A program made the translations under genes and the position numbers. DNA of 64,000 nt, taken from the NCBI RefSeq assembly GCF_032854445.1, contig NC_088305.1:12155606-12219605 (forward strand). Reading direction: 5' to 3'. This DNA is from Liolophura sinensis (Eukaryota > Mollusca > Polyplacophora > Chitonida > Chitonidae). Below, piece by piece: positions 9,447 through 64,000 of this stretch. Position 1 is the first letter of the stretch. Every line of letters begins with the position of its first letter. The notes beneath the pieces are model-generated. The model saw only the letters and a program-made list of their open reading frames with translations, was not told where the DNA came from and did not search any database.

Positions 9447-9520
9447 CTTTAAATTAAAGTCAGCGGAGCGCTTAGCTACATCAAATGAAGGTATGTTGAA
9501 TATTTTGGTCTCTGTGTTTG
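9447..9520 (-). CDS. GABA-B-like exon 16: cytoplasmic tail
   Basis: 74 nt, phase 1 in and 0 out, with a strong acceptor (T-run then ACAG) and donor AAAG/GTAAGT. It encodes KIFNIPSFDVAKRSADFNLK. It fits the phase of exon 15 exactly. No convincing following exon was found further left. Confidence 0.62.
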
Positions 9521-10961
9521 CTGTAAAAAAAATAAACGAAAGCTGTTCAAAAACAACTTTGCGGAAATGCTGTACGCTCGGAAGAACTTTGTGAAATTTT
9601 AGTAAATATGCACAATGAACATTTTCTTGTTCCTTTAGACATTTATAAACAGACGACAGTAAAAATAAACCAAGTATTATTGTCATTGCAGGATAGAGGT
9701 AAATTCCTACCTCCACTTAGCGGGGTCCCCTTTCACGAAACCTCTTCAGTTTATTCTTGGCTTAAGCAAAACTAAGCGATTATCGTAGTTGACTCACTCA
9801 GCTATGCAGTGGGTTTTTTTTTAAAAATACGTGACGTTGAGAGTTTAGGAAAACACTAGTAACCAAAGCAATTTATTGAACTTATGAAGTAGCGTGAAAC
9901 ATTAACATCCCGAAATATTTAAAACCCACACAATTTTTAACTCTCTACAAGAGAAGGCTATAAATAAATTTCCTGGAATCATGAATAATCCTTACCTTGT
10001 CCAGCTTCCGGAGCAACTTTGCTGGAATACCTTCCAGCAGTGGACGGTGGACTACTTACTGTCAAATCTCTGGCCGTTTCTCGCGGCCGCACACCGCCCT
10101 CTGTTGTCATGAACACTTTACCTGCTTGCTCGTTTCTTCGTAACACCTAGAAAATTAAAAACAGCCGTGTTGTCATGAAAAGTGTTACGTGTAAAAATGG
10201 TCTGATATTGTGAACCGGGTCTGAACAGGAAACGGTTGTATGGCGTATCAGTCATGTAAGGCGAAATCACGCTTTACAGAGTGATATTGGTATGTTATCG
10301 GAGAGACTCGTGTTCACGTGTCAGTCCGATCATTTTGAACTAAATTCACATTGACAATCAGGATTTCGCATTCCATGAAGTATATCCCGGAAGTGTCAAA
10401 ACTAAAGGTCGTAAACCCGGCATTACTCTTTGAATTCAGTTAAAGTTAGTGACGACTGGTAATATACAATATAAAAGATTCTAAAACGACACAAAATCAC
10501 TAATTAAATAAGGTAAACAGAGGCTTCGATTAACGCCTTAAATCAGGAGGCTTATAAACACATGGTAAAAATGGAGTTTTACCCCTGGCACACTGATTTC
10601 CTGTACTCATCATAAAAAATACAAACAAATACAAAATATGAAAATAAACTACAACACCTGTGCGTGTGAAGGAAAATAAACAATTGAAAAATTTTCTTTG
10701 TAAGAAATTATTTTGCCAGAAACAAAACCGATATGGGAGTCTCCGAGGCAGAGGTGGTTAGCATGATAGCGCAATGACCCAAAAGTCTCTCACCATTATG
10801 GTCGCTCCGAATTCAAGTCCAGCTCATTCTGGCTTCCTCTCCGGTCATAGGTGGGAAGGTCTGACAACAACCTGCTGATGGTCGTGGATTCCCCAGGGCC
10901 TCGTCGGATGCCGTAGTATTAGTGAATATATTCTTAAGTAAGGCGTAAAATACCAATCAAC

Positions 10962-10996
<35 letters not shown>

Positions 10997-13900
10997 ATCA
11001 AACCCACACCTTCGGACGTTAATCAGTAACCATAAAGCATTTTCTTCATAAACGTGTTGGAAAGGGTTATAAAAATCAATTAACGTTGCTTTTGGACAGA
11101 CATAATAAATATTCATTTATATACTCTTATATGTAACAATCATAGACAGTTTGACTACCTTGGGAACAAATACAATGCACAAAACCAGCGTGGTGCAGAA
11201 GATGGTGAATGCCGAGGTGATAACAAAGGCGGAGCGTTGATTGGGTGTCGCTTAGCACGTGATTTACGGGAACTGCGAAGGCACAAATCACCACAACGTT
11301 GTACACACAGAAGCCTATCAGCCGTGAATCATTGAGGACGGGGATGGAGACTTTTCGTGTCTCCCAAGCCAGGAACGTCCCGAATATGAGGAGAAGCCCT
11401 TTGTAGACATAGGCGGCGGCTAACCAGTAGGTCTGGTAAGGACTAACGCACACAATGTACATTTCCATTACGATGACGTCACCGCCGGATTGCTCCTGTG
11501 GAGAAAACAGCAATTGTACGAATTTTAACAAAAGGCAAACTTAAAAAATACAATAGTAGCATTGTTTTCTTATTTAAATTAAATGCTCTCAAATTTTCAA
11601 ACTATCTGATTGCACTTAATTAAGGTTATATTTTTTTCTTTTTCACATTTACCCATGGGTTACGGACATGTCGACTGATTGGTTTAAATTATCTCAGGTC
11701 GTATGTGGGAAGGTCTGACAGCAATCTGCGGATGGTCATAGTGCTAACCACCGTCGTAGATGTGAAATATCCTTGAGTACGGTGGTAAACATTAAATAAC
11801 TAAGTAAACAAATTTTCACAAAAGCGCAAAAAGAAACAGTAACACATTCAACTGGTTCATGGCCGGTTTCCTCCCACTATAATGTTTGCCGCCGTCGCAT
11901 AAGGGAAATTTTCATGAGTACGGCGTATCCACCAATCAAATAAATAAATAAACATAAGTACTAAGCGATTATAGAAGACCCACAGCTGAAAGTAGTAAAC
12001 GTTTACATGTACGCAGGAAAAGTATTACCTTGCAATGGATGGTATTGTTTTTTCGAAAGTTACATTTACCAGCAGAAGCCATACACGAATCCTATGGTGT
12101 ATTAAATATTTTATCCACAGACAGACAGCAAACTTTCACATGCGCGCACTGTGTCACGCATGTCAAAAAGGTGAGAAAAGGGGTAATAAAAAAAACCAAC
12201 AACATAAAATGACCTTGAAAGTATATTTTCAAAGATAACTCCGGCCACAATAAATTCGATACATGGTACAACAGATCAATATAATTGAATGGAAGTTTTG
12301 CCCATACCTGTCTAGGAAAGTTAAATGAAGTTTTTACCTGTTCAGCATGTTTAAGGTGCTTCTCTGTCAAGGGATGGACAACTTGCCAGGGTATAAGTAT
12401 AACAAGGTCTATTAACAACAGCAGCCCCACCAAGCCGAACAGCCTCTCGTCACGTACCGTCTGCAAGCACACACGTTAGTGAAACGATGAATTAACATGA
12501 CAAAGGCGTGGTGTGTAGAGACTTCTTTATTTTTACGAAGCCCATAATTTACAGTCTAATAGTTAACATAAAAGACTACATTACGGAGAGAAAAACCAGA
12601 GCAGCGACTACAGCTTGAACTCTTGAAAAATATACCTTTCGCTTTAGTCGAGTATTTCGGAAGAGAATATGCACCCGCCATGTTTTTGAGAACAGCGCAC
12701 CAAACGACAAGGTAAATCCAAGGGAAGTAACCCAAACACGTGCCTAAAAAGAAACGTCAGCCTGCATAAACTTTGGCAATAGACAAACCCTTGAACAGCC
12801 AAAAAATTAATCTGCTAACTTTAACAGAAAGTCTGTTATCTGAGTGATGCTAGAATGTATTCTGCTGTTGCAACAGATTCTCTTAAATATAACACACATA
12901 TTCTAATAATCCAACATAAAGATTCTATTTGGGGCCTCCGTGGCTCAGTCAGTTAGCGCGATAGCGCAGCGTAGTGACCCAGGAGCCTCTCACCAATGCG
13001 GTCGCTGTGAGTTCAAGTCCAGATCATGCTGGCTTCCTCTCCGGTCGTAAGTGGGACGGTCTTGCAGCAACCCGCGGATGGTCCTGGGTTTCCCCCGGGC
13101 TGTGCCCAGTTTCCTCCCACCACAATGCTGGTCGCCGTCGTATAAGTGACATATTCTTGAGTACGGCGTAAAACACCAATCAAAAAAATAAATAAATAAA
13201 GATTCTATTAAGACTGACAGAATACGCTGCTGAATATAACACAGTATTATGTTATAAAAATAGTATACATTCTAGCATTACTCGGACAACAGACTTTCTG
13301 TTAAAATTATCACCTTGATTGATTGAGTGAAGCATGTTGCTATTTACATAACCGTGGGAAGAAGCACGTTGAGTCGAAAACAAACAATAATCGGCAATAA
13401 TCTTCATCATGATTAAACCTTCCCACAGGTCGGCGGAAGTCAGGTACTCTTCTTCTGCACAGCTTGGGTGTGTAGTTCGAAAACTGTACTGTCGAACAGC
13501 TCGGAGGTGTTCATGTAAGTTGGATGTGTCGTCTGGGTACATACCCCTTACAAGGGCATGTGCCGATGGTTAAAGCTACAAATTTTGCTTGAAATCTTAA
13601 ACTACGCGAAGATCACGTAGTAACAATGAAGAGGCCGGAGATGAAGTCAGAAAAGCAAAAACGCTAATCCATACTTGACACATTTTCTTCATCTAGAGTA
13701 TGCACAACGAAAAGCAATATGTTATTGAAAATGCTGATTATAGCTAAGAGCAAACGCATTAGCGGTTAGGCAAAAACTCAACAATCTCACGTGTGTCACA
13801 CGTGTTCCATGGGTCAAACTTGTGTAGTTGTGGCAGTGAAGTAAAGGGAGTGTATACTGCGATGCATGCGCTGTAAGGACTATGTTCTGGGCACTGTTGC

Positions 13901-16900
13901 ACAGTTTGGCAGCATTCAGAGAAGCAACTATCATGCATTTGAGGTTTAGTCCGGGGGACGGTCCCCAAATTCGGCGAGATTCATGTAAACACTTACCATG
14001 CAGAGATTTGAGGTGTTGTCCGGTGGACGGTCCCACAGTTCGGCGGAGTTCAGATAAACCGTAACGTACATGACGATAGAGCCCAGTATAATTAGGTTGT
14101 TGATGTTTGGACTTGACATCTTTATTGCCCTGCAAAATTAATGCAACCGTTGGATAGGGGAAGTTAATGGTTCTTCTGTCAGCTGTCCCGTCAGTTTAGT
14201 AAATCAATGTGGATAGGACAAGCACAAGCCCCCTTAGACCTGAACGCTGGTATTTTACCTGTCAGGCTAGTTCAAGTGGCGCAATTATTTGAGTTTCGGC
14301 TTATATAGTTCTTCTGAAAACGTGACGTTGTTTGTTTTTCCGATGGTTGAACGACATTTGTCTACTCAACGATTAGAGAATGTGAAAATGTTTGTTAAGA
14401 TGCCAGCGTATGTACGAAACATATTTAAACATAAAGCTATTAAACACCTCCTCCAGGCCTGGTCATACCAAAGAGAGATTAAAACAAGGAAACAGCACTG
14501 GTGGACACGGCCTTGGTATAATAGAGACCTTTAATTAGCTGTTAGTTTATCTATTCTAGTTTGAAGTCACAGTTCAACTTCTAACCAAAGGTGTTTAATG
14601 TGATTAGGGGGAGTGTCTCCGGCGGTAGTGATACTTCAGTGGCAGTAGCACTTTGGCGGCCCTGCCACAAGAAGACACAGTACATGTATATGTACACAAA
14701 ACTAGTGACTCCGTGTCGTCACATGACTGAAAAATTACTACATCTATGTGCGAAGTGTAAAGCTCAAAGCATTCATACACCTCCTGCGCTAGACAGTCAT
14801 TGTTTCACGATGACATGCGCTGCCAGTGCTATTGGTTTGGACATTTCTAAAAACTACGTTTGACAAACGTTCACCAGCGAGTAATTTAACAAAGCAATTA
14901 AAACAAGAGTAAATGTGTGGAAAATCTATTTACAGGAAGACAAACCAAATATGGATACTCGACACAATTAAAAACCTGACACTTGCTTAAGTGAATCTAA
15001 AGTATTTCGTAAATAATAATGAAAATTGATGTTTATCGTAGTGTTATTATACAGGTAACAATATTGACAAAACAATACAACTGGATTATAGTATCAATGT
15101 AGGGGAAAATATGCACCACATCCAATTACCACCCTATGTAGTATAGTAAACACGAATTTCTATAGCTATGTACACAATACTTTCAGTGTAAAATTCAAGT
15201 AGACAATTATCAAGCTATTAAATTGGGAAATAAGTCAGAAATTGAAAAATATTGTAGAAAAAAAAATGCTCGCAAATATATAAAAAAAGATTTTGTAGAG
15301 GTCATATATTTCGTTTCACGTAAATGACAACGCTCAATTACTTACCGTTGAAGCAATGTTAAATCACAGCACAACTTACAGTTTGGTGCGGAAAGCTTTT
15401 TTAAATCATCGCACATGTTACAGTTAGGTAAGGAAAGCAATGTTAAATCACCACACAACCTACAGTCGGGTGCTGAAAGCAATGCTAAATCACCGCACAA
15501 CTTACAGTCGGGTGCTGAAAGCAATGTTAAATCACCGCACAATTTACAGTCGAGTGCCGACAGCGATGTTAAATCACCACACAACTTACCGTCGGGTGCG
15601 GAAAGCAATGTTAAATCCTAGGCATAGAATGGCACAGATGACGCCAGCAGTGTTGAAGACGACGATCAGGGCTACAGCGGCTTTGCTCAGTCGTGGGTAC
15701 CACTCCATGTAGGTAAACTTGTCCTTAGGGGTGTGGCCGTCTGACGAAAACATAAATTATTGATTGGTTGGAACGAAGAGTTTATGAATTAATTGACTGA
15801 TTAATTCTATTAAATGACTGTTTGAGTGATGCATTCATATATTAATTGATTAGAATGTAAACGTGTCCAAAGGAGTGTTACCCTCTGGCGACAAGACAAA
15901 TAATTGATTGAGCGGCCGGAACGATGAATTTATGAATTCATTGACCTGTTGATTGATAAATTCTGTTTAAAATGATGGTTGAATGATAAATTGATATATT
16001 GATTGACTATAATGTAAACGTGTCCTTTGGATGTGATTGTTTGGCGACAAAAGAATTTCCTTATTGATTGGTTGGAACGATGAATTTATGATTTTTGAAA
16101 TTTATGAATAGATGGCTTAACCGGTTTTAGTAAATGGCTGGTTCATGATAGAATCTGACTGACATATTTACCGACAGCTTTAAGCGGACATTAATAAATT
16201 TAATTATTGATACAGGTGCACTAGTTTAATCATAAGATGACTGCGCTATTAAATGACTGACTTACTGATTAATTGAATAATCGACCGACTGATTGATTTA
16301 TTGATTGATTAGACGTTAACCTATGTCATGAGTTTCACTGTCGCATTCACGAGGCTAAAGATTCATGCATTCCGCATGACTATTGTAGAAGTTTCTAGCA
16401 ATTATTATTCTTCACTTGGCTTATTTTTTTCTATCCTATACACCGGCTAAAATAGACCATTATATTGTGACTGTGTGTGTTAACGTTTCTATAATTGCAC
16501 TCCAATCATAACTGTAAGTTTCCGGTCGAAGTCAGGACAATATTTTCACTGTCAGTATATATTTGCTCACTCAATAGCCAGCACACCGCGTACATATACA
16601 TTTGTAATGACTGGTCGCATGGTAACAATAGGAATCCACAGTTTACGGTCATTACAATGACCCACATAACTGCATATACAAGGTGCAACGCGCTTGTCCA
16701 TAAGAACAATTCAAACCAATATTCCCCGTTATTTACATAAGAGCACTTCAGACTGAAAACTCCGCCGCATGTAACTGTAAGCACGCCTGTCTACGTATAT
16801 TGACGTTCTGTATCACTTACCTGTGAGCGGTAAATACATTGTCCGAAGCCTTCACAACCCAGGGCAAAGCGCATCTACACGTACAGGGAAGTCGGATACA

Positions 16901-19900
16901 ACAAGATGCTGATTGAACGAGGCTATATGTTACATATTCGCAGTTGGAGAACATGTACTCCAACGGAAGTGTGCAACATTGTCAGATAGACGTCGTTGGT
17001 TATGATGGGCAAAAACAGAGCTTTAACAGCAGTGTGATAATTGTAAATGGTCACACGTAACCCATGAAGCCCGGTCCCTCATCAATTTACCTTATTCGAG
17101 GTTTAATTCTAACCGTACAAATAACTTTTTAGATAGAAGAACACTTACCAGTTCCTTTTTTACCACGACTTTACTAGAATTAAGCACAAAAATACCGTGA
17201 TGTTAGCCACAATTTATTTGACGTCATTAGTTGCTAAGAAAGGGCCAATGCGTGTTAGGCGATGATTTGACCCATTTAAATTCGATGTGAACTGGAGTGG
17301 ATAGAAAACATCATCATTTTACATTACCAGAAAAGAAGCAAACATCAATTGCTTACAACTGAAAAAAAGGCCCAAGACATTTGTCATGTTGTGTGTTCTA
17401 ACAATTTGCACACATATAAATTAATATGAAATTCGCGGGGCTTCCGTGGCTCAGTTGGTTAGCGCGCTAGCACAGCGTAATGACCCAGGAGTCTCTCACC
17501 AATGCGGTCGCTGTGAGTTCAAGTCCAGCTCATGCTGGCTTCCTCTCCGGTCGTAAATGGGAAGGTTCCGCAGCAACCTGCGGATGGTCGTGGGTTTCCC
17601 CCGGGCTCTGCCGGTTTCCTCCCACCATAATGCTGGCTGTCGTCGTATAAGTGAAATATTCTTGAGTACAGCGTAAAACACCAATGAAATAAATAAAAAA
17701 TAATATGAAATTCTTGTCAGCGCATTACACAGGGGCGTGGACTGGATAACAAACAAGTTAACGTAAATGAAGCAAAGGAGTGCTGCTTGCGCATTCAATA
17801 AGCGGGCTTTGGTTACGTGAGCACTGGTCAGTGATAACTTTTTTCGGTATGCTGAGAGTTTGATGACGTTCCAAAGGCTGACCTACATGCTCGTATAAGG
17901 CGACATTCATATTTGTGTATCACCCTGGCACACAGACACAGCTGTTGACACACTATAAATTTTCCCACTGTTATTTGGCACGTAGTTAAAATATATCAGA
18001 ATATCACTTCGCTTCCAAAAGCAACAGCTAAATACGGCGGTCATGCTGATGGGGTTTTCGATATGTTGTAGACAAAAATGCAAACTGCGTGTAACGGTAT
18101 GAGACCGACCAAATGTTGACATATTTGAATGTTTTGGGGTTGAAGTTGACAAATTTTATTTGAAAAATAATAAGGAAAATCGATAAGCTCATGTAAAATT
18201 AACTGTCCTGTGGAAATTCGCCACCCCAAATAACTACCCTTCCACCCCTGCCCGGAAATCATGACAGAGAGAACATATTCATAGTTAAAGCCATGTGCTT
18301 TCCAGGTTATGTGATACTCATATAAATATATTCAGAACTCACAATTTACTTAGGTGATGCAGTTACTCATTACGATAGATAATGACAGTAATCTTTGTGG
18401 TCTTAATTTTACTGTTTGCATTCAGACATACATGTATCAAAGGCTTTATGCTATATGTCTGTTCTAAATAAGGCATCTTCAATTAATATCCGGATACTTC
18501 TCTAATCATAGATTTAAAGGGATTCTTTGTTCATCGATGGAAATTGTCCCCAAGATGGCGCAGAAGTAAGGTGTGTTTTTTTACGTATAAAAAGCGAAAA
18601 CTTTTTCCAACCTAAAATTTAAAAAAGTGCAGTGATCTAATTCATACTTTTGTCTTATAAGAAGACAAACCTAAAGTCAAACCAGATTTAGTTATTCTAA
18701 TGGCAAAGGAAACAACAAAGTGCAGTAAATGTCAGATAAAAGACCATTAAACACTGTGCATGAATATAGTTTGATTTACTTTGTTTTTTTTCAGCAAGCA
18801 AAAATCGAATTAATTCGCTGGTCAGGGTTTAATGGTCTTTCAACGTTTTGTTTTCTTCAAACCCCATTTCTAGGGAAATTGGTTAAGGCCCAGTCTTATT
18901 CCAGCTGTTTATGTTAGCTGTTAAATTGTAGACACTATAACGGCTCCACGGCTTATGCAGAATTACGTAAACAACAATTGCACTGAATGATAATTACATC
19001 TAATTTATTACTTGCCACTGGTCTAAAATTACTCAAAATGCTGTGTTTTCATCACAGGTAATAATCATATAAATAAGAACAAAGCACAGGGACCAGGCCG
19101 CTGGAATGTGTTATCCACAAGCGTGAAGAATTTGCTTCATGAAGCCTCAGGCAAACTTCTGCTTCTGCCTGAGGTAAACTTCTGCTTCAGGTCAGTACCG
19201 GAATTGCCTGATCACACCCAATACGATCAAGCTTATCTAGTGCGGTATAACGTCTGATTCACTCCGTCAGTATTGACAAAACGTGGCTGTTCAGCAATCC
19301 CTGTGTTTGCTCGGTCCTGTAGTAAATCCCGAAAACTACGAACAATCGTCCCATTAAGCGTCAGGAAGAGTAATGTTTTACTGCTCGTTAAATATAACTG
19401 TTGATCAGGTGTGTGTGGTAGTGTGGGGCGAGAGCTTTTGGGGGGGTGGGGTGGGGGGGGGAGGAGAACCTTGAGTCCAGCACAGCAAACATGACTGGTT
19501 TCAGTCCGTCGACAGTCAGTGACGGCGTTTCTATCAATCTGCAAAATGTGCGCGGATTGTTTCTGACTGGTAACTTTATTTATTCTTATTCACAATTTGA
19601 GATTTATAAGGTAACGATTTACATTGCCATTTACTTTTTGAGCGACGTTTCAATAACAGCCTACTGCGTATTACAGGTATGCCCTTGCCCGTTATGCTAG
19701 ATAGATAATGGTATTAGCCTCAGGCAGCTTATGGGAAAAAAGGTGTCCACATAATTTTATTGTGTTATATTTCCATTGATTGCAAGGTTCATGTCGCTTC
19801 TGTGTATGAAGCATATGCTAAAACACACAGTATGTACCGACTCGACAAACGCTTTCAGCTTTTAAGCTTTCACTGGCCGCTTTAATTTCTTTCACCGTTT

Positions 19901-22900
19901 TCGTGACACCGTCTAGCACTCCATAAAACCGAATTAATAACATAAGGTACTGTGTAAGCCTCTGTAATACAAGAAATGTCCACATATGACATTTCCACAT
20001 AGGACAGTGATAAAAAGCTCAGGGGTTATATTTTAGATCAGGACGACCTCGCCCACAAGCTAACAACCTTTTGCTTTCATAACACGTTAGATGCAGAGTT
20101 AACCTTAAAGCCATATGCATATATAATATTGATAAAACAGTCAAGGCCGAAGTACCATGTCCCATCTTCACAGTACAAATCTCCACACACACAGAAACAC
20201 TATTGTTTATTACCTAACCAAAGGGAGTCCGGAGACACATGCCACACGAATTGGTCGGTTTCCGGAAAGTATGTGGCGACGACATTGGCTTCCCCATCTG
20301 ACAAAAATAAACCAAAACAAAACTGGGAGATCTTCTGCACACATTAAATTATGAGTAGCTAAAAGATATAGAAATTGAAAATATGCTGATAAAACTCCAG
20401 TCAAATTTGAAGGAAGGTTAATCTGAATACTGAAATGATATGCATATCACCATTCTAGCAGAACTGTTCCTATCCCACATTTGCAGTGAGGCTTCATTTG
20501 ACCCCGCTATGCTGAGTAAGTAAATGCTTGGGGTTTAACGTCGTGCTTAACAATTTTTTAGTCATATGGCGACGAAGGAGTTCTTATAGTGCATGTAATG
20601 TGCCTCCCTGATGCAGGACTAATTTCCACCTCTCTTTTGTCTAGTGCTGCTTCACTGAGACGCCTTACCGAAGGCAAGTAAGACACCCCACCAGAGCCAT
20701 TATACTAATACGGGTCGATTAGTCCTTGCACTATCCCCGTCATGCTGAACGCCAAGTTTGGAAGTTAAAACTCCCTCTTTTACGGTCTTAGGTGTGACTC
20801 GACCCAGGACTGAGACTGGATCTACCGCTCCCAAAGCGGACGCTCTACCAACTGTGTATACCAATCGGGGCCCGGTCCGCGCTATGCTGACGGCACCTGC
20901 CAGACACCTGCTAGATGTACGACATCCCAGCGCCCTCACAGTTTTCGACATCTTGGTGGCAGTCGATCTCTGAGCTCTTAGGCCATTCAGGCCGTTCAGG
21001 TGGTCTTGCATGAGGTTCACTGGAAACCACGTAAGCCAAATAGCTTTTTGGAGAGCACATGACCGGTATTTCTTCGCTACAGAATAAACAAACTCACGTG
21101 GCGGATCAACATCCATGTTAACGCCTAGTGATCAGCACCAATGGCACACAGTTAGCTAAATTTTGCGAGTCTTAAATTAACCTTTGTAAAACCTAGAACT
21201 GTAGTTGGACTCCAGTATAGTTGCGAGCTGAAATCTTAGAAAAATTCACATAAAAACCTAAAGTGAACTAAATCCTGGCTTGTCAACAAAGGCATTTAAG
21301 TTATACAATCAGGATTGAACTCGCTTGGAGTTTCACTTGGAAACTCGGGTCCAAGCTGGATTGGTCATTGCCCTCTTGCAAAGTGTATGTAAAACGTAAC
21401 CATAATGTCCACAAAGGCCTCATGAATGAATGAGATAAACGACTTAGGCCGGAAGTTTTTTCCCTCGGTCTATGAGGTGGGAAATGTTGATTAAGCAGGT
21501 TTGTAACTGACGTTAGTCAAGAAGCACAAAAAAAAAACACATCCCTGGGAGAAATCAATAAATAACTCATATTTTGTACAACAGCTTTTTATAGAAGGCG
21601 CCCGAAGTCGCAAAAGTATCTATTCAAGATTGCATCTGACAACAAAAATGAATATTATCGGATATGGAAATCCATGTCTGTCTTACCTGTGGTTTGATAC
21701 AAGTAGGTGGGTCCAAGCCTTCGACCGTCACTATCGAACGAAACTGGTCCCTGGAGAGAAGGACAGAAAACATCTACAGGCATTAAGTCATGTCACACTG
21801 GCAGATTTGGAGTTTTTTTCCCTCGGTCTATTTTCATGCTTCGGTCTATTTATATAAGAACAAAAAGGTAGATTATGCTAGTTTTACGTTTACGTCGCAC
21901 ACCTTTCTTCAGTGGCAATGGGTTTAAATCATTAGCAGTGGGCACTGTGATTACACCGTTGTTAGTTGGCACTAGGATTAAACCATTGCTAATTGTCACC
22001 ATGAATGAATCATTCTTTTGGGGCCTCCTTGGTCGAGGTGGTTAACGCGCCAGCACGGCACAATGGCCCAGAAGCCTTTCACCAATGCTGTCCCTGTGAG
22101 TTCAAGTCCAGCTCATGGTGATTTCCTCTCCGGCCGTACGGAGATAAGGTCTGGCAACAACCTGCGGATGGCCGGGGGTTTCCCGCGCGTTCTGCCCGGT
22201 TTCCTCCCACCACATTGCTGGCAGCCGTCGTCTAAGTGAAATATTTTTGAGTACGGCGTAAAACACCAATCAAATAAATAAATAAACCATTCTCAGTTGG
22301 CATCATGAGTAAACCATGCATAGTTGACAACCATTTATAAACAGACTAAAATTGTTACTGAGCGGTATTTTCAATCTGACATTGTTTACTTTGCTATTAA
22401 ACATATATGCTTCTTTTTATGTTTACTTATATAAAGGTCACATTTGCTCCTTAAGGTAATATTTTCCGCGATCTGACGAGAAATTGCTGATTTCTGAAAT
22501 CAAGAAATGCTTGCTTCAGATTTGTAATCTACTTATATATCTTAAATTCACGGTTATTGCTGGACGCTTTATTCATAGACAACAAGTAGAGGGTAAAATC
22601 AACACGCTGCGGATACTCAATGTCCTGTATTTCACGGTAATACATGTAGTGGTATACCAAAGCCTTGCAAGGCTTTCCTCTAACCAAAACAATGACAGCT
22701 TGCGCACCGTGAGAAATTTGTTTACAGAACTGACCAACAATCCAATGAAAAAATATTATTTTTCTGAAACTCACCGAAACGCCTTCAAAATGAATAGATC
22801 CCAGTTCTCTTTTCAGCGTTTCGTATATTTTAGTATTGTTGTACGAAAAGTCAGTCAATGACGTTTCGCCAGTTAAAATGGTCGAAGTCTTGTTCAGAGC

Positions 22901-24111
22901 CAACGCCAAGGCCCACACAGCGTCATAAGCAAACGAAATGGCTTTGGACCTGACAGATCTGTCTCCCACAAGAGCACGTGAAAACTCATCAAACTCCTCT
23001 GGGGTCTGGAAAATACACAGAGATGATCCCTCTAAGGAGCAAAGAAAGCACGCAAATAAAGTATATCCGATCAATATTAAATACATAGGGAGTAAAATCA
23101 GACCAACAACAAGAGGCCGTACTTTTATCAGTTGCGTGTAACCATTTAGCAACCATCACATTACCGTCTCTGCATGCCTTTTCTCTGTGATGTAGAATTT
23201 TTATATGTTAAATGCATTGATGTTAAATACAAAGTATTAGATATCACAGGTCTACAATTACTCAAATGGCATTTTTTCATCGGACTTCTATTTCATGTTA
23301 GAATTTTCTTCTACTTTCAATCGACCGACTTTCGAACAGGGTTAAAAACAATTTCTACTTTTTATTTACGAATGCTGCATTAACAATTTTGAAGCTTGCA
23401 TCCATCCATACCTCGACTTTTTTTCACTTCTCTTTAATGATGATCATTATTAATTTCTGTATCGGTTTTTGTCAACATCATTGTCGTTATTCTTTTGATT
23501 ACATTACGACTTCTGGCAGAGGCCACAGTCCTCATTTCCATGATATGTATGGTGCTCTCTCCGTGCCGACATCCAACTCTGGCTCTTCTGAACAGTTAGA
23601 ATAAAACCCTATCTGAAGTAGACTGACAAGAAGCCGGTTTTCACCGGTAACGTGTGACCATTTGCAAACTATCGCACTGTCGTCGCATCGCATATTACTC
23701 TCTGTTTTGTAAGTCCTTTATCATATTTTACCCTTGCGGCCTATATCTGCATTTACATGTAAATGCGGGGCCTCCGTGGCTCAGTCGGTTAGCGCGCTAG
23801 CGCATCGTAATGACCCAGGAGCCTCTCACCAATGCGGTCGCTGTGAGTTCAAGTCCAGCTCATGCTGGCTTCCTCTCCGGCCGTAAGTGGGAAGGTCTGC
23901 CAGCAACCTGCGGATGGTCGTGGGTTTCCCCCGGGCTCTGCCCGGTTTCCACCCACCATAATGCTGACCGCCGTCGTATAAGTGAAATATTCTTGAGTAC
24001 GGCGTAAAACACCAATCAAAAAAAAAAAAAAAAAAAAAAAAACATGTAAATGCTTTCGGACAAGCTGAAATCTATAATTAGAATACATTAAATGCCTCAT
24101 TCACCGTGATG

Positions 24112-24184
<73 letters not shown>

Positions 24185-27100
24185 CGTTCATGTATATTAA
24201 TCGATAGTTAGATATTGACATGCATTAATACTGCGTACCTGTCCGGACACAGTTGTGATGTTAAGGTGGCCAAGTACACTGTTGTCTAAAGTGAAGAATC
24301 CGTTGGCCACGGCCTGTAGCTCTCTTGGTGAACAGTGGAGGTCTGACTCATCATACACCCCCCAGTTAGTAAATGTGTACGCCCATGGCAGGATCCAGAC
24401 AACATGTCTGCCGTACAAGCCTTGGCGGTAAGCCTGGAGAAGACGACTACATTATTATTATTACAGGGGGGAAAGTCCTTATGCGTATCCTGGATAATAC
24501 TAATAAAATGGGAAACCAAGATTGAGCGCCTGTCGCGTATTCTGTTTTGATGTTGACAAATACAGGTTTCTAACTTATAAGAGGGAATATTAGATCGAAG
24601 ACTGATGCCAGTTTGCCAACATTTCAATGATTAAAGTCAATCAGAAAAGCATAGCGTTTTTAGGACTTTCGTGGATTGGAAAATGGATTTTCCAGGAAAA
24701 GTCCTCACTCTGAATTGTCGTCTGAAAGGTTTTTTGATGTTGTTTTCGCCTAGAGATTAAAAAACCAAATCCTTGGAAATATTGCTATAGCACTTAACAA
24801 TATTTCAGCCATATTTCTAAAGTTTCGTCTTGTCACACGCCCGCCTAAATACCGACATAAATATAGTGCTACCTCAATTGAACAACCAATCCGGAGACAC
24901 CAGACGCGACACCCTTCTCAAAGTACTCTAACACCAGGCCGACCAATAGGCTATTTCTGCTACACTCTCAAAACGCGAATGACAATAACTTAAATGCTGT
25001 AAAACGTGAAACCGGACACCTTAAAGTGTTACGTCACGTAATTACTCTTAATCAATTTAACATAAATCAGTGTTAAGCTTGCGCATTTTTAAAGTATTTT
25101 ATAACGTGATAGAGTATGTAACAAATACGTGCATGTCAGGTGTCATAAAAAAACGTATAGCTTACCTCGCAGAATATGTAAGGAGCATGGTGTCCATAGA
25201 ATGACCCGACAATGATCCGAGCGCGATAGTGCTGTCAGCGCGGGAAAAGCAGAGAGATGGACAAAAATGGAATTATTGAGTAACTCACAAATAGCTCAGC
25301 TGGGAAAACGTATGACTCTTTTTGCAATGTCATAAATAGAACCCATCCTGTATTTAAAGAAAAAGACCTCCAAAAATCGAAGTAGGCATCACTTCATAGA
25401 CCACATAAAACTATACATAACTATACTTTCATTTAGTGTTTTAGACTTTGGTGAAAAAGTTAAAGGCGTTCAAACGTTTGAACGCTTAATGGACCAGGTT
25501 AGGAATTCTGGCGTCAAAGAAAGTTTTCTTCCAACTCTAATCACGATACTGTATGTTGCAATAACTCTTTTTACCCATGAGTCAAAGAGTACTGAAGTAA
25601 AAAAAAATCACTTCTTTCTGGTGAACATCAGGCAAAAAAGGTGATGTGAAGTCAGAGTTCCTAGATACCATCAGTATGGCTCATAAAGCCCAACATGGCT
25701 TTCAAATACTTGAAAGACTTTCAATACTTTAAAAAAATCTGAAAAAATAAGTGAAAGTATTTGTACGTATAGACTTCAGTTGTCTGTATGATGAACCTTA
25801 CTTCATATTTTAGTTTTCTTTTACTTTAATTATCTATTTGGTTGTTGTTCAACGTCATACTCATTTTTTGGGGCTTATATAAAATGGCGTTGATTTCAGA
25901 GGTGGGCAAAGCGGAGTACTCTGTGTAAACCACTAACCACAGGCAACTCACTGCCAAACTTTTCATTACACATTGGACTTAGCGACTTGCACATCATGTT
26001 AATTGAATAACAAGTGGTCTTCAACGAACTGCGCATGATTGTCGTCGAACGCATTTTTATGGCCAAAGCCCTGATAAAAACTTAGAATGAATCGCGCCTC
26101 ATGTGCCTTTTGTTTTGAAATCGCGCACTTTAATACGCCGCAAAGTCCCGCTCTAACCATAATCTTAGACACTTTGTTACTGTGAGTATACTTTTAAATC
26201 ATACTTTTTATGACTTGTGAGTCATATGTATACTTACTAGGTTTATTTTATGATTTATTTCTTTGGCTTGGTTTTGCAATAAAATTTATAATATTAAATT
26301 TATTTCATTAATGTTTAACACCATATTTTAAGGCTTTTCCTGCGGCCACAGTCCGGTTTTTGGGAAGAATAAACTCATCCGCAATGTTTTGAAAAACACA
26401 CTGGCTTAAAGTAGGAAATGAACTCGCGACAGCTGGATTCTTTGCCGTAGCTTTATTATTCGGCAGCGATGAAAGGGCAAGAAAACATAAAAACTGTACC
26501 AAAATCAGAGGAAACAGCGTCAAAACTTGTTTGCAAATACGGTCTTTAATACTGTTTGAAAATATTTTTGTATGGTGGATCCCAAATACCCACCATAAAC
26601 ATGTTTTTTTTTCTTGAAGTGTCCTTTTCTCTTTAAAGAAAAATCGGTAAGTATTGAAGACCACATTTGCGACTAAAGCTTCGCACTCTTTCATTTGAAC
26701 TTTTGTAATTTTTATGTTTTCTCCACCTTTGACTTTCTTTACGAAGAGACTGTTCAAGCCCAGCTTTCAAACTATAGTGGAAAAAACATTGCAATTATCA
26801 TTGATTGGCTTCTGTTTCATCAACAGGTCAGACTCAATTTCATGGGAGATAAGTCGTGTGGCCTGTTTTCACTTTAAAATTAATCGCTTTTTGGAAAACG
26901 AAGATGAAAGACAGAATCCTAGGGTAATGACTATTATGTGACTAATTATCCTACCTTCAATCTTTGTATGTGATCGGTGACTTGGGTTACGTCTGTAATG
27001 ATACCAGACGTCAACAACGTGAAGTTGTTTTCTTCCAACAGCGTGTGAAAGTTATCAATTCCCTGCAGGGAGAGAAGTGTGTACAAAAAGTAAACCAATT

Positions 27101-30100
27101 ATTACACTTTTCAGATAAGATATACACTCACACGTGTAGTGAATATAAAATTTTCCACATTAACTTCCGACAATTGATTTCACGATTAATTAAAACACTA
27201 AACCATTCCTTGAAGGATGTCCTTTCTTAAAGGAAAAGAACTCTAAAAATCGAAGTAGGCATCACTAAATAGATCACTTAAAACTATGCATAAATATACA
27301 TTCACTTTTTTTTAGGTTTTTTGTGAAACGAGTTAAAGGCGCTCAGACATTTGAATTCTAAGGTGGGCTTTATGGACGATAGTATCATAGGTTAGGAACT
27401 CTGGTGTCATACGAAGTTTATCCAACTCTAATCATGACACTGAATGTTGGAATAACTTTTTTTGCCTTCAGTAAATGATTACTGATATAATGTCCCAAAA
27501 ATTCCTTCCTTCTGTTGAACATCAGGAAAAAAAGGTAATGTGGCGTCAGAGTTTCTAGTTCCCGTCGGCTTGACTCATAAAGCCCACCATAGTATTAAAA
27601 CATTTCAGTGCCTTTCAATACTCTTTCAAAAAATCTGAAAAAAAATAAATGAAAGTATTTTCACGCACAGTTTTCGATTGTCTGTATGATGAACCTTACT
27701 TCATATTTTAGTTTTTTTTTACTTTAAAAGACTCAACGCAGCAAATAAGCTTTTCAAAATGTTTGGACTTACGCGTAGTCCATTTTCATTGCAAGCTTTA
27801 ATGTGGATTTCACAAGCACTTTTTAACCTACCTGTGGAGGGGGCAATAGAAACGCATATCATTCCAATAAGAAACAAGTAAAATTCAGAAACGTCATGGC
27901 GTCACTATTGTGTTGGAATCTTTGGTTGCTTTTCCAACGCAGGCCTTACATCAGGCATAATTCGAGTGCTTATAGTCCCAGAAACCACTAAAATGAAGTA
28001 CACGCCAGATGAAAGACCATTTAAAACTGTACAAGAAAATAGTTCGATTTACCTTTTTTTTTTCAGAAATTTTCCAACCGAGTGAAATGGTTTTAAAACA
28101 ACAGATTCTACGGTGACCTTTTGAGAACCAGAGGGTATCAGTGACGTGCCATTCATATTTTTTTCAAGGACCATTCAAGGAATATATTTATAAATTTATA
28201 AGTATATGCATTTTTAATGAAGAAATGTAATAGTCTCTGTGTGTTAAGTGACACAAAATGATGTTACGAACCTCGTCCCAATATTGTTAGAAAAAGGAAG
28301 GCTTTTTATTAGATTGAAAAATATTAAAATAAAAATGAATCGAACTATTTTTGTGAACAGTGTTTAATGGTCTGACATATACTTCACATTAGTGTTTTAT
28401 TTACCTTTAAAACCTCTGCTTGTCAAGATGAACATGTGAGAAAAAGTCAGGTACTTAGCGACGTCATGCATGAAGTCACAGGAAAAGACCCACTCAGTTC
28501 TGTTCCAGGAATGTCCGCTGGACGTCAGGTTACGCCAGATAATACGAGGTTTTGCTTGATTAAGAACAATTAAGAAAAATCTTATAATCCTCTCCAGTCG
28601 TACGTCAGAAGATCTGCAGCAACCTGCAGATGGTCGTGGATTTTCACACAGACTCTGCTCTCTTTTCTCCCATCATGATGCTGGCCGCCGACGTATAAGT
28701 GAAATATTCTTGAGAACAGCCTAAAACATCATACAAATCATTTAGGAAACGTATGGGATGATTGGAGTTTGGGCTATTGATTGTCAAATAAACGTACTGC
28801 TGTGAACAGATCACTAGCCATCGAGAGCGTAGCGACCTTCTTCCAGCCGAACTTCTTCATCATAGCAATTCTTGGTGGGTTGAAAGTTTCCTCGAGGAAA
28901 TTTGTCAGGAACACGCTGGGGTAAGACTCTCTGTCCGCCAGAGTTGAGGAGCGTGGAAAAAATGTCATCTGGGGAAGTAAGGATATTGGAACCTATCTTA
29001 GGTATATCAGCGAAAAACTTCAATTATTGCAACCTGCATACATACAATGCCATTTTTCAAATGCAGTTTTATAATTACACACATACCCTAAATATATTAT
29101 TCTATCGTCTCACTGGACAGGAGTTGAATCAAAAAGTACACAGATTTCTTCTCACCTCCACACCGTTTTAGTACTGATATCTTGCTCACCTCTACCGTAT
29201 TGCAGTACTGATATTGTGCTGACTTCTACCCTGTTGTAGTACTGATATCGTGCTCACCTCTACCCTATTGCGGTACTGATATTATGCTTACTTCTAACCT
29301 GTTGTAGTACTGATATCGTGCTCACTGCTGCCCTATTACGGTACTAATATTGTGCTCACTTCCACCCTGTTGTGATTCTCATAATTGTCCTCACTTCTAC
29401 CCTGTTGTCGTCGTCTGAAATGACTGAAAATTTGTTATGTACGATGTTAAACCCCAAGCATTCACTCACTCACTCTACCCTGTTGTGATACTTATATTTT
29501 TTTCACCTCTACCCTGTTGTAGTACTGATATTGTGCTCACCTCCACCATGTTGAAGTAATGAGTCACTTGACCTATGACGAGGGCTTCTGGTGAGCTACA
29601 CGGCCCAAGCACGGCGAGTTTCGGCGGATATTCCGTCACCATCTCCTGGTAGCGCTTCAGGGCAAGGCCGGGTTTACCCTGTGACAGTAGATAGTATGTG
29701 ATCTGTTATGATTTATTTATTTATGTATTTATTTGATTGGAGTTTTACGCCGTACTCAAGAATATTTCACTTATACGACGACAGTCAGCATTATGATAGG
29801 AAGAAACGGAGCAGAGCCGGGGGAAACCCACGTCCATCCGCAGGTTGTTGTCAGACCTTCCACAAGCCAGCATGAGACTCACAGCGACCACATTGGTGAG
29901 AGGCTCCTAGATCATTGAATCGCGCTGGATAGTTAACCTCCTCGGCCACAAAGGTCCCTGATGTTATACACCTAAAACCAGCATGCAGATCGTCCATAAT
30001 TCTTATTTATTTATTTCATTGGAGTTTTACGCCGTACTCACTTATACCACGACGGCCAGCATTATATTTGGAAGGAAACCAGACAGAGCCCGGCGGAAAT

Positions 30101-33100
30101 CCACGACCATCCGCAGGCTGCTGTCAGACCTTCCCACGTGTGTCTATTGTTCAGGTCTTAGGATCATCAAGCGATCTTAAGACTTGAGTATAAACTTCAG
30201 ATCAGTTTAAAATGGTTATTTATTAATTAACAAGGTCAATATATTGCCTGACAACGTAAATTCTGGGCATTTTATGGTAAAACAAATTTTAGCTAAAATA
30301 ACAGAAAGGAACATGCCGAGTTTAATGAGTGAAATTAAGTAAACTATAAACTAAGGTATGTTTAATAATTAGCAAACCTCATTACTTATTTATAGAATTA
30401 TTACACTTTTTATTACACAAAAGGGATATCCGCCTCAACATTGTCTCTTAATCCATGAAAACCTGAAAACCTCAGGATAAGGCTATAATTGCAGTATTAT
30501 TTGTCTTTTCATTTTAAGCTGAACCAAACCTGCATTTTGAATAATCTGCAATTTTATTGTCTTCTGACTTGCGGTAATGAGAATGAATTGTCACTATACA
30601 TGAGCAGATGTTTGATCACCCTAAAGCCGTTGGTTTTCCTTGTTTTAAATAAATACTGGCACAGTGGTAATTCACCAACGAGATTTTAAGCTGTAAAACC
30701 TAAGATAAATACTCTGAAGGAAAGTTAAACTCAAATGAAATAAATGAAATAAATAAATAAATAAATGAATAAATAAATAAATGCATGCTTGCTTATATGC
30801 CTTGGGGTGTTACTGTAGTGTGTTACATGTGATAGACACACTCAGCCTCATGTATTCCTCATATACACACTAAAACAGGTGTTTTGTTCTTAAACCCATG
30901 TCTGGTGTTTATTCATAACAAGAATATGTTTAGTTACTATACACATGTTTACACAGTAATATGATGGATATTTTTAATGAACGCAAGCATGCCCATATTT
31001 ATATTATATGTAAAAAGCAAACAAACATATAAAAGTGTTTACTGGCTCGTGCCATGTCTATACAGTAAATCTACATGTTCACCATGTAAACATGTCACGT
31101 TTATTGCATTTATTGTGAAATACAAGACATTACTATGGAAATATTTCACATGTCACTACAATAAAGACATGTTTTGTTACTGGCTAAACATTGCTTTTTA
31201 TGAATAAACACTAAAACGCATTTCCGAACAGTGACGGAAATATGTTTAAAATCAAAACACTTGTTTTAGGGTGTATGTGTCTGAATTTCATTCAACGTAA
31301 TAGTGATTGTTGGCATTGTTAGTCATTGTTTTGTTTAAATCACCCATCGCACACAGTAGTGTCAGAAGGTGTGCGCTTACTGCAGTCATTACGGTTTCCT
31401 CCAACTACGAATCTGAGCGCCGTCGATATAAGAGGAATGCACCTCTTCTTATTACGTTCCCCCATTACAACACGCGATTCAGTATAACATGGTAACAAAG
31501 GTGTTCCTCAATTTCTTTTTACAGAGGCTCTCATTAGAATAAACTCCATACAATAAGCTTCATCTATAACACAGTAGACAGATCTGTGCCCCAACAACAG
31601 CGTTGCGGCTAAGTGAGGTGTATTCTTGAGTACGGTGTTAGACGGTGCGAATAAATAAATAGATGAGTCACTTTGTGTGTTTGTGTTATTCAAAGATTTA
31701 CATATAAAGCCAACATCATATGCGAATTAAAGAGGCTACACCACAGATTTTGGCAAGATACAGATCAGGATCCAGTAACTCAAATAATTACCTTGAACAA
31801 CGGTGTTACCGTTCAAAATCGGTATTAAAAATCGAAAAATTTATATAACAGGTCGCGTTGTAACTTTATCAAACTTTCAAATCATTTTACCACTAAAAAC
31901 GGTACAGGCACAAGTCTGACATTTACTAAAGGAAATAATTTGAGCTATTCTTGGTAAATACGGAAAATCTGATTTGATTAGCAAATATGGATTCTTTCTC
32001 CAAATATCTCGGGTATAGACTTTTAATCGTTAATTGAAATACTGAAATATCCTATCAAAGAAAAGTAATGCAAAGGTGTTACTATACACTGTAACAAATG
32101 TCATTGTAATTTTACAGCGAAAAGTGCTGGCAATTTTGTGACCAGTTCTTTCACTGTAGATTTACAAGATGTTTAATATTTACACCCAAAATAATTGCAT
32201 ATTTCCACATATAACATTGTAAATAATCAGTTAACTCCATTGCAAATTAACAAAATCTACATATCTACCAAGAAAACCAGTCTACATTTACATCAAAGTG
32301 CACTGTAAATGGTCAAACCGCTACAGTTTTACAGACAATGCTGTAAACACACAACGACTGGAGTAAAATTACACCACATACGTGCAGAATTGCGCTGGGA
32401 AATGCTGTAAAATATTTACAACATGATTTACTGTAATAATGTACGGTGCCTCAGGCTGTTAACTTGCATTCAATTCTTACAGTGTAGTCCATTTTCTTTT
32501 GCTGCAATATAACCTGTATAAATTAATTTTACTTTATCTCTTGTAGTATATGATCTCATGGCAGTATGGTTTTAGAGCTGATAGGAAATTTATAGTAAAA
32601 ACAGTGTAGCCTATTTACCGCGTGGAGTTTGTTCTAACCTCATTTTGATGTGCCTGTTGCAAAACAATTACTCTCCAGGCACATTCTCCAGCGTGCCACT
32701 TGTTCTTAAATAATTATGGCATCCAAATTCAATGATTTATTTATTTATTTGATTGGTGTTTTATGCCGTGAGCAAGAATATTTCACTTATACGACGGCGG
32801 CCAGGATTATGGTGGAAGGAAACCGGACATAGTCCAGGGGAAACCCACGACCCACTGCTGGTTGCTGCAAGCTTTAACATTAACATTATGAATTAGAAAA
32901 AGTATTACAACTGCATTCTCCTTGCAATGATATTTATTTATTTATTTATTTGATTGGTGTTTTACGCCGAACTCAAGAATATTTCACTTATACGACGGCG
33001 GCCTTGCAATGATACAAACGTACAAAATATCGATATGTAGAGCTTGCTGTGTAACGTGTCACTAATGAAAGGCAATTTTAATAACTAATATGACTAATGA

Positions 33101-33447: not shown

Positions 33448-33479
33448 ATTTCACTAACGAAGAAGATGAAATGTGAAAT

Positions 33480-39603: not shown

Positions 39604-39604
<1 letters not shown>

Positions 39605-39692: not shown

Positions 39693-39693
<1 letters not shown>

Positions 39694-58047: not shown

Positions 58048-58872
58048 TTTATTGCATGATGGCTTGTATGCATATATATGATAGTACATATACACAAAAC
58101 CAAAGAATTGTACCAATTTCTCCAGTACAGAGGCCTAAGCCTTTCATGCATATTCATACCCTCAACTCCAGCATCAAGTCAAAAAATGTAATGAAAATAA
58201 CGCCAAAAAAAAAAAAAAAAAAAGAAAAAAAAACCACTCATAAAGTTGATCATAAAACTTAACAAAACAGAAAAAATTGATAAAAATGATGATTCTCAAA
58301 TAAATCAAAAGCTTGAGCATAATGTAAAAACATTCAAACCACAAATAATCTGACAATTCACATATATGACATTCAAATATGTCTAAAAAATCTTGAGGTC
58401 TGACCTGAAGGCAACAATTAAAACTTAAATTTTACAGAAGTTGAAATATGGAAGCATCAAGTATGTGATTTCTCAGTATATTCGAAGTGTTTATGTTTTT
58501 GCATTGTGCTGATAAAGAGGGATAACGTCTTTGATAAAAATCTTTACATACAGATACCAGTACAGGTAAGTCTTGTACAAATACACACACTTAAACTGTT
58601 ACATTTTCATTATGCGTTGTCCACATGTACACACACTTAGTCCCAAACATCCATATACATATACACTATATGTAACTTTCTCACAAAACACTTTACAGTG
58701 TCTTTCAGAAACACGTGCACTAACACGTACACACTTCTTTTTAAAAACTACCACATTTGGATTAAACTTCATTTAAGGTGTACATTTTAAAAAAAAAAAA
58801 AAAACCCAGATATACATGTAAAGAGCAAATATGAACATCTTTAGCTGACTGGCATAGTCTCCAAACCCAGGC
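58048..58872 (-). other. Probable 3' UTR of the WBP1L-like gene
   Basis: AT-rich stretch without SINEs, running from the stop codon to an AATAAA at 58048-58053 (minus strand). It contains A-runs at about 58205-58221 and 58789-58804. No coding potential. Confidence 0.4.
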
Positions 58873-59081
58873 CTAATAAGCCTGGTTTGTCCTGCCCGAG
58901 GTATGGTCCGGACACCCTGTTACAGTGCCCCCTCCTCGGGCTCTCTCCACCCCTGCTGCCCCTTGACTGGGTGCACTGCACTGATGATCTACCTCCAAAT
59001 TAGCTGGGACCGGTGAAGAGTTAGAGTTGGTCATCACTTCTGAAACTTGTGTAGTAGGCACTGAGGCAGTCTGGGAAGATG
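58873..59081 (-). CDS. WBP1L-like last coding exon
   Basis: Acceptor TTCTCTGTCAG, phase 1 in. It encodes 69 further residues, Ser/Thr/Pro-rich (SSQTASVPTTQVSEVMTNSN) and ending GRTNQAY, stop TAG at 58873-58875. No domain is visible. The 3' UTR continues left; the only AATAAA noticed on this strand nearby is at 58048-58053, which would give about 820 nt. Confidence 0.78.
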
Positions 59082-62000: not shown

Positions 62001-63541
62001 CTCTTTTATCTAGTGCCCCTCCACTGAGATGACTTACCAAAGGCAAGTAAGCAGCCCCACCGGAGCCACTATACTGATACGGGTCAACAAGTCATTGCAC
62101 TATCGCCTTCATGTTGAATGCCAAGCTCTTTTAAAGTCTTAGGTGTGACTCGACCCAGGATTGACCCTGGATCTCCTACTCCTGAAGAAAGCATTTGAAG
62201 GACGACAGAACACAGTGGCCTTTTCGGACCAAATCCCAGTCATGTCATGTTACTTTCACATTGCTTATTTCATGAGATCTTTCAGAACAAGTGTGGAAAA
62301 TTACAAGAATGAAATTCAAGCCCGAAGCTTTAAACATTCTTGGGTACATGTATAAATGGCTAATGAAAGAAATTAGAAGGAAATTCCTACTGAAGTGGAC
62401 ACTCGTACTGACCTCAGAGTATGGGGGAGGGGCCATGAAGTATGCTCCGGGATCTGCCCCGGGGCCTGAATACGCATAAGCATGTGGGTATATTGGCATA
62501 GCCACGGAGACAGGCGTTCGCGAGTTCCGGTGAGTCGATCGAGGAGGAGGGGCCAAGGAGAGGCCGGACGCCCTCTGACGAGCAAATAACATCTGTCGTC
62601 TCTTGTAGTATCCACAACCTCCAAAACATGACATAAGGATGAAGACGATGATGAACCTGCATACAAAACAAATAACTTTTTAACAGGATGAATGAATGAA
62701 TGAATGAATGATTAGGGTAGTACACCACAATGGGACTATTTAAAGCTACACCAAGGTGAGAACAAGCTAGAATTTATTTATTTTTTTTATTTGATTGGAT
62801 TTTTCCCTAATCAAAAATATTTCACTTATATAACAGTGGCCAGCATTATGGTGGGGGGAAACCGGACAGAAAATGGGGGAAACCCAAGACCATCCGCTGG
62901 GTGCTGGCAGACAGCATATTACAACCGGGAAACAGTTGAGTTAAACCTTACAGTTAGTTGTATGCAGTAAATACAGTATCATAATAGGAGCATAACCAGG
63001 GCAAAAGAAAAACCAGGTCCTCTTAAAAATCAACTAAAACACACAGGAAATCAACTGTAATTTGAAAATCACATTAAAAATATGGTTCGTATACAATATC
63101 CTAAAATGAGATTAAAACTGTTTTTTTTTCACATTTATTCACAGTTTTGACATGAATGCTGAAAACTATGCTGTCTTTTCTGCTAATCGGGCCCACACAA
63201 GAGAGCTCTAGATTAGTCATTTTTTTTACAGCACAGATGCCTTGAGGGTTCAAATCCCATTCTCTTTACTACTCCCAGAGACCTCAGGAGGGTGAGTGAC
63301 AGTTACATGTACTTGGCGACCTAATAAATTTATAACAAATTGCTTTTGGACAACAAAAGCTTGTCATGACCTATCAGTGAAACTTGACTCAGCAGTGTAT
63401 GGGTTTAACTCAGGGATTAGTGGAACTTACCAGAAATACCACATGTTCCAGAGGTTCCACCTGTAATACCTGATCATGGAGGCATCGTAATCCTGGTCAG
63501 TACAACAATCTGACCCACAGCACCGTGATGGAGCATTACAG
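58873..63541 (-). CDS. WBP1L: WBP1/WBP1L/VOPP1-type WW-ligand membrane protein (last 4 exons; 5' part off the window)
   Basis: Four exons read without a break. Order: a Cys-rich extracellular or lumenal segment (CNAPSRCCGSDCC) directly before an aromatic-rich helix (WNLWNMWYFWFIIVFILMSC), a cytosolic CGYYKRRQ stop-transfer, then a Pro-rich tail with PPPYSE and ELPPYPG. Two PPxY motifs behind a short Cys-rich head and one TM is the layout of the WBP1/WBP1L/VOPP1 family, whose PPxY motifs bind WW domains of Nedd4-type E3 ligases. The signal-peptide exon(s) lie right of 64000. WBP1L is favoured over VOPP1 by the PPPYSEVVSQPDLYP...PPYPG spacing, from recollection of the family. The gene converges on the FAM151A-like gene. 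Confidence 0.82.
61318..61435 (-). CDS. WBP1L-like exon: second PPxY motif
   Basis: 118 nt, phase 0 in and 1 out, acceptor AACCTACAG, donor CTGT/GTAAGT. It reads VVSQPDLYPVNKSELPPYPG and then DDAPPPAAP. Confidence 0.9.
61483..61731 (-). mobile_element. SINE-A copy, diverged
   Basis: TTTGATTGGAGTTTTATGCC, GATGGGAGGAAACCTGAAGG and head ACACGAAGGCCCC. WBP1L-like intron. Confidence 0.85.
61887..62188 (-). mobile_element. SINE-B copy
   Basis: GAGTGGAGTTTTAACGTCAT, CAGGTAATGTGCCTCCTTGT, CTATACTGATACGGGTCAAC and GACTCGACCCAGGATTGACC. The head is cut short. WBP1L-like intron. Confidence 0.87.
62413..62656 (-). CDS. WBP1L-like exon: second half of TM and PPPY tail
   Basis: 244 nt, phase 2 in and 0 out, acceptor TGTATGCAG, donor GAG/GTCAGT. 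It reads FIIVFILMSCFGGCGYYKRR, then a Pro/Ser/Tyr-rich stretch ending FMAPPPYSE. Confidence 0.9.
62772..62920 (-). mobile_element. SINE-A, 5' truncated
   Basis: TTTATTTGATTGGATTTTTC, GGCCAGCATTATGGTGGGGG, ending mid-body. Confidence 0.8.
63431..63541 (-). CDS. WBP1L-like exon: Cys-rich head and first half of TM
   Basis: 111 nt, phase 2 in and 2 out, acceptor AATGTTTTCAG, donor TTTCTG/GTAAGT. It reads CNAPSRCCGSDCCTDQDYD and ends WNLWNMWYF. The acceptor side is echoed in the minisatellite immediately upstream in transcript order (63590-64000). Confidence 0.88.
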
Positions 63542-63589
63542 CTGAAAACATTCACAAATACACAACATTAGTAACTACATATATGTACA

Positions 63590-64000
63590 TGCAGGTTACG
63601 CAAAACACACATACGTCATCAGAAGCCATGAACAGCGGACAGCTTACACACATACAGCACCAGTAACCATGGACAGCTGACAGCATACACACATACAACA
63701 TCAGTATAACATGGACAACTGAAAGCATACACACATACAGTATCAGCAGAGCCATGGACAGCTGACAACATACACACATACAACATCAGTATAACCATGG
63801 ACAACTGAAAGCATACACATATAAAGTATCAGCAGAGCCATGGACAGCTGACAGCATACACACATACAACATCAGTACAGACATGGACAGCTGACAGCAT
63901 ACACACATACAGCATCATTATGACCATGGACAGCACGCACACATACAGCATCAGTATGACCATGGACAGCAAACACAAATACAGCATGAGTATAGCCATG
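63590..64000 (-). repeat. About 45-bp minisatellite resembling the adjoining exon's acceptor
   Basis: On minus, about nine or ten units of GTTGTATGTGTGTATGCTTT plus CAGTTGTCCATGGTTATACTGAT, running off the right edge. The segment TATGCTTTCAG/TTGTCC matches the true acceptor region AATGTTTTCAG/CTGTAA of the exon at 63541, including the upstream GTTGTGTATTTGTG. Confidence 0.88.

Follow-up and report, generated by a model that had tools for sequence, protein, structure and literature searches.

Mirages and related systems

Tandem repeats across exon-intron borders, known as mirages, have been described in lancelets, in Adh3, globin, troponin C, PGBD5, and other genes (PMC3087553, PMC3902484). 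Mirages are said not to disturb regular splicing and are unstable in length, and new introns have been proposed to stem from them (PMC3087553). The present analysis concerns arrays of this kind in the chiton Liolophura sinensis, a mollusc, in a window (the whole stretch of DNA that was analysed) of 64 kb from a genome of 609,464,459 bases in 632 contigs. The assembly was first published as Liolophura japonica (PMC11068029) and the species has since been corrected to L. sinensis (PMC12441733). The arrays lie at four junctions of a GABA-B receptor (subunit-2-like) gene, and junction-spanning arrays recur at 11 of 155 junctions in genes picked regardless of repeats. The chiton junction repeats look mainly like a consequence of how common tandem repeats are in the genome.

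The features common to the lancelet mirages and the chiton arrays are minisatellite-like duplication of the border, occurrence at donors and acceptors, spread of copies into the intron, and retention of AG or GT in many copies. The lancelet units of 10 to ~160 bp are likened to those of the chiton. Three of the five mirage features are testable in the chiton, and all three were found: a border-spanning unit, presence at donors as well as acceptors, and partial AG/GT retention. For the lancelet mirages reverse transcription polymerase chain reaction (RT-PCR) and length-instability data are reported, whereas the chiton arrays are known here from the sequence of one assembly.

Intron gain by tandem duplication of AGGT-containing segments, a proposal of Rogers cited in PMC3087553, likewise involves tandem copies with splice signals. 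It differs in that the chiton introns carry no sign of being new, the two borders being unrelated in the 11 introns tested. For the dual-specific AGGT splice sites of polyubiquitin, many such sites are reported usable (PMC10809524). That system and the chiton have in common that one gene holds repeated units with numerous splice-site matches. In polyubiquitin the repeat is the coding gene itself, whereas the chiton copies lie in introns. Ordinary intronic minisatellites are also tandem arrays with drifting units and are common in most sampled parts of the chiton genome, but the junction arrays have the exon edge as their terminal copy.

No earlier report of mirages in molluscs was found in the open-licence literature, among the matches listed, and the accessible parts of papers on abalone calmodulin and on Conus hold no relevant similar repeats. 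As far as this literature shows, among the matches listed, mirages were previously reported in lancelets only. The chiton provides a new phylum for mirages, a first estimate of their frequency (11/155) with a background comparison, and an explanation by background repeat density.

Arrays at the junctions of the window

The earlier note on this DNA named arrays at five or six junctions, the exon 13 donor as a probable one, each with a unit that contains the real junction, copies that spread into the intron, and the real site at one end. The test took the 45 nt of exon nearest to each junction (75 nt at exon 11), aligned them with 700 nt of the intron next to it, and set the result against 1000 dinucleotide shuffles. 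The coordinates of the arrays, given as window positions, come from Tandem Repeats Finder and diagonal self-comparison.

29151..29553, with a gap at 29409-29468, minus strand: array of a 34-bp unit at the exon 2 donor (29541|29540), shuffle p = 0.002
15713 to 16091 or 16094, minus strand: array of a 156-bp unit at the exon 10 acceptor (exon start 15740), shuffle p = 0.006
15351..15617, minus strand: array of a 42-bp unit at the exon 10 donor (15590|15589), shuffle p = 0.001
13883..14059, minus strand: ~69-bp unit in ~2.5 copies by eye at the exon 11 donor (13997|13996), shuffle p = 0.001
12270..12345, minus strand: duplication claimed for the exon 13 donor (12338|12337), unsupported, shuffle p = 0.46
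63605..64000 and on to 64961, minus strand: array of a 36-43-bp unit in the intron before a WBP1L-like exon (start 63541)

Four of the six are upheld with p values of 0.001-0.006: one at exon 2 (donor), two at exon 10 (acceptor and donor), and one at exon 11 (donor). At these four sites the described anatomy is also correct. They comprise three donors and one acceptor, and in each of them it is the exon-side end of the array that holds the real splice site. The terminal copy at the exon 2 donor is 22 nt of exon tail, and GT is present in all nine intron copies compared, two of them within 0.5 bit of the real site. Both exon 10 arrays, at the acceptor and at the donor, take in 28 nt of exon; GT is kept at the donor, with T at -1 in five of five intron copies compared. 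The exon 11 donor block, which is absent from the Tandem Repeats Finder list and was seen by self-comparison only, takes in 63 nt of exon, and the donor GT of its second copy is lost. The same shuffle test gave p values of 0.39-0.86 at five other GABA-B junctions.

The remaining two claims are not supported. Duplication at the exon 13 donor is rejected on the shuffles (p = 0.46). At the WBP1L-like acceptor the copies align up to the acceptor yet cover only 4 nt of the exon, and deep similarity to the exon is rejected in the same way (p = 0.76).

Control sample

The control sample consists of CCT chaperonin, myosin, and adaptin genes, obtained by family search and picked without regard to repeats. 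From 168 family matches (81, 50, and 37), 92 matched exons were used, taken for exon density and not for repeats; an adaptin match with seven internal stops (C8:45345945-45346472) was excluded. A simple score together with an open frame fixed the splice sites, which rest on homology and that score. Of the 184 exon ends, 157 were kept (score >0) and 27 dropped (score 0 or below), and the phase agrees in 32 of 33 abutting exon pairs. Two diverged tandem copies of one myosin-head exon occur at L027:495-599 and 1594-1686 and are likely mutually exclusive alternative exons. Without these two tandem alternative exons the set comprises 155 junctions. The flanks of the window hold too few recognisable genes for added junctions.

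A local duplication was defined as a near-duplicate within 800 bp, and a junction was counted as straddled when at least 6 nt lay on each side of it. Such duplications account for 12.9% of the noncoding positions of the control loci; over the 244 kb made up of the window and its surroundings, their share of all positions is 14.2%.

Splice signals in the intron copies

Fourteen junction arrays (four in the window and ten in the control) were searched for copies, and 13 of them hold 83 alignable copies. The unit lengths are ~31-156 bp, many of them not multiples of three. GT or AG is kept in 69 of the 83 intron copies, and 34 of the 83 score better than the real site or no more than 0.5 bit below it. 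If the core is left out in choosing the copies, 68 of 82 (83%) retain GT/AG as against 72% for the other dinucleotides of the unit, which indicates that decoys are not purged.

The control arrays include long rows of sites. A CCT donor is followed by ten tandem intron copies of equal score, 66-88 bp apart (L025:1196-2130). Behind a myosin donor stand 16 copies of a 31-bp unit, one of which matches the real site in strength, and a myosin acceptor is preceded, every 31-32 bp, by eight copies that score at least as high as the real one. The last 60 exon nucleotides at a CCT donor recur in an intron copy with 60/60 identity, and 48/48 exon nucleotides are identical in an intron copy at a myosin acceptor. 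The unchanged 60-nt exon copy implies that duplication or homogenisation was recent. None of the eight copies in one CCT acceptor array keeps AG.

Junctions compared with the repeat background

The earlier note held that so many junction arrays in 64 kb are far from expectation if minisatellites fell at random. The control sample does not support this, with 13 of 157 junctions straddled against 19-20 expected from the 12.9% background, and 11 of 155 straddled against 21.1 in position-randomised trials (p = 0.007, a depletion). Coverage of junctions is about half of the background, as it would be if duplications survived only where they extend slightly into the exon. As a null, coverage is generous, since no array can pass through a coding exon.

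A test based on the exon side only gives 13 of 157 control junctions at p <= 0.01, against 1.6 by chance. Nine of these 13 are strong (score at least 30), and one of the nine is the duplicated alternative exon. Applied 150 nt inside introns, the same test is positive at 17 of 156 positions compared with 13 of 157 at junctions (Fisher p = 0.45), so that junctions behave like other noncoding positions. By the measures of coverage and exon-only similarity, junctions are not enriched. The rates of straddling in the window and the control do not differ (Fisher p = 0.28).

Origin of the arrays

The most probable explanation is that mirages are minisatellites from local tandem duplications that happen to straddle junctions, and that they are a tolerated, near-neutral by-product. 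Local tandem duplication is frequent in the sampled genes, with about one noncoding base in eight affected, and we infer that such a duplication would at times span an exon-intron junction by chance. The copy joined to the exon would keep splicing, while the extra copies would sit in the intron and be spliced out, so that the change would be nearly neutral; exon-side copies, which would damage the protein, would be removed by selection. The array would then grow only into the intron, which would account for the real site standing at one end, and later growth or shrinkage would proceed as in minisatellites. Exon definition and proximity probably pick the exon-side site among equal decoys.

Several observations weigh against this explanation. 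Duplication coverage is uneven: the window has 4.7%, and values of 0 and 0.1% were obtained for two haemocyanin loci of a 20-kb region (L002 and L003, with none or one near-duplicate and no junctions scored). The exon-side site is taken as the one used on the strength of protein homology. In the window, which was itself chosen for its junction repeats, straddling affects 4 of the 31 junctions mapped, where the local background predicts 1.4 (p = 0.05). When the ends of arrays that lie within the exon edge and extend into the intron are counted, 10 of 155 junctions have one 6-60 nt inside the exon, compared with 4.2 at random noncoding points (p = 0.009), or 9 compared with 3.6 at a stricter match score (p = 0.012), an excess that neutrality alone would not predict. 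These 10 ends include 6 at 78 donors and 4 at 77 acceptors. Such counts fit tandem duplication that is favoured at exon edges by replication- or transcription-linked breaks, or by a nucleosome or base-composition step, with junctions as mutational hotspots. The excess also appears with a 40-nt zone (6 against 2.9, p = 0.064) and an 80-nt zone (10 against 5.3, p = 0.041), and in the window (3 of 31 against 0.6, p = 0.02). Relative to intron 70-200 nt away, sampled as five overlapping positions in the same orientation, it is ~1.9-fold (10/155 against 26/755, Fisher p = 0.07), and it is larger relative to positions 250-600 nt away (9/545). A hotspot is nevertheless unlikely, as junction coverage lies below the background, the exon-only test finds junctions no richer than introns, the contrast with nearby intron reaches only p = 0.07, and, of the ten array ends, one rests on a weak match of 24 nt. 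The p values near 0.01 are weakened by the several zone sizes tried, and the sample is small. The arrays may modestly prefer exon edges, or DNA close to exons, but this is unproven, as is targeting of junctions, and the favouring of exon edges suggested in the earlier note stands as a lead. It is doubtful that junction minisatellites formed preferentially at exon edges occupy several percent of all splice sites, so that in thousands of genes rows of sites compete, some with eight to ten copies of equal strength, and only the exon-side site is used, with a separate origin in lancelets.

Two further causes had been suggested, and the copies themselves bear on both. Selection might keep the arrays if extra splice signals aided recognition or regulated splicing, and the 34 of 83 copies at or near the strength of the real site, together with a retention of GT/AG somewhat above that of other dinucleotides (68/82 against 72%), agree with this. 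The copies nevertheless run from identical to broken: T stands at -1 in all five exon 10 donor copies, GT is lost in an exon 11 copy, AG is kept in 0/8 copies of the CCT acceptor array, and the direction is inconsistent. Maintenance by selection is accordingly very improbable. An origin of the arrays as by-products of intron gain through duplication of an AGGT segment, which the lancelet authors proposed for mirages (PMC3087553), is equally hard to credit. It predicts that the two ends of an intron are copies, but in 11 GABA-B introns the donor border is no closer to its own acceptor (scores of 11-16) than to other acceptors (means of 13.0-15.3, maxima of 15-28). That comparison took in the array-bearing introns 2, 10, and 11; introns 8 and 9, the latter with the acceptor array, fall outside it because exon 9 was not found.

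Gene models and neighbouring features

The GABA-B borders are set by homology, frame, and GT/AG, and 13 exons were placed in the window. Exon 9 was looked for in the window and not located.

11159..33421, minus strand: GABA-B receptor (subunit-2-like) gene, with Pfam and PDB matches and borders from frame and GT/AG
33421-33172, 29678-29541, 28968-28798, 27062-26955, 25231-25166, 24433-24239, and 23005-22775, minus strand: GABA-B exons 1-7
21750-21687, 15740-15590, 14129-13997, 12743-12636, 12460-12338, and 11495-11159, minus strand: GABA-B exons 8 and 10-14
63.5-61.3 kb, minus strand: WBP1L-like gene, named by resemblance

The joined exons of the membrane part match PF00003 (1.6e-51), and those of the outer part match PF01094 (7e-35). 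Exons 13 and 14 together match a solved GABA-B subunit 2 in PDB (1.2e-30). For exons 2-4, in the outer part, subunit 1 entries are nearer (1.4e-14) than subunit 2 entries (6.7e-08). The alignment of the joined exons to solved GABA-B subunits is free of gaps across the joins 2|3 and 10|11. The final residues of exon 11, which carry its repeat unit, lie outside the structure alignment and rest on frame and on the Pfam match over 11|12. In exon 14, at window positions ~11240-11260 on the minus strand, an apparent frame change was seen by eye from VLSDTQ to the next conserved membrane helix, and it is possibly an assembly error or a broken allele.

The WBP1L-like gene had no match in a Pfam search. 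Coding DNA for Menorin (FAM151-like), in which PF10223 matches at two separate places, lies at window positions 49883-51717 on the plus strand, upstream of the GABA-B gene and on the opposite strand to it.

Outside the window, eight matches to PF14830, a molluscan haemocyanin family, stand in a row on one contig, and they speak against a lancelet origin of the DNA. In the left flank one 53-bp unit forms two long arrays that run in opposite orientations (L019:6863-9990 and L021:400-9554), ~3 kb and ~9 kb long and ~10 kb apart. The right flank has a block of coding-like open frames on both strands (L009:2430-8761), which is perhaps a mobile element.

Significance of the junction arrays

The presence of junction arrays at ~7% of sampled junctions (11/155) in a mollusc suggests that mirages arise where the birth of minisatellites is frequent. 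The same frequency suggests that duplicating a splice junction has an almost neutral effect. If the reading in which several percent of splice sites bear arrays formed at exon edges were true, thousands of natural genes would contain rows of competing splice sites. The arrays are natural tests of the choice that the spliceosome makes among many equal sites, as at the CCT donor with ten donor copies and the myosin acceptor with eight acceptor copies. Junction arrays are also standing raw material for alternative splice sites or new introns.

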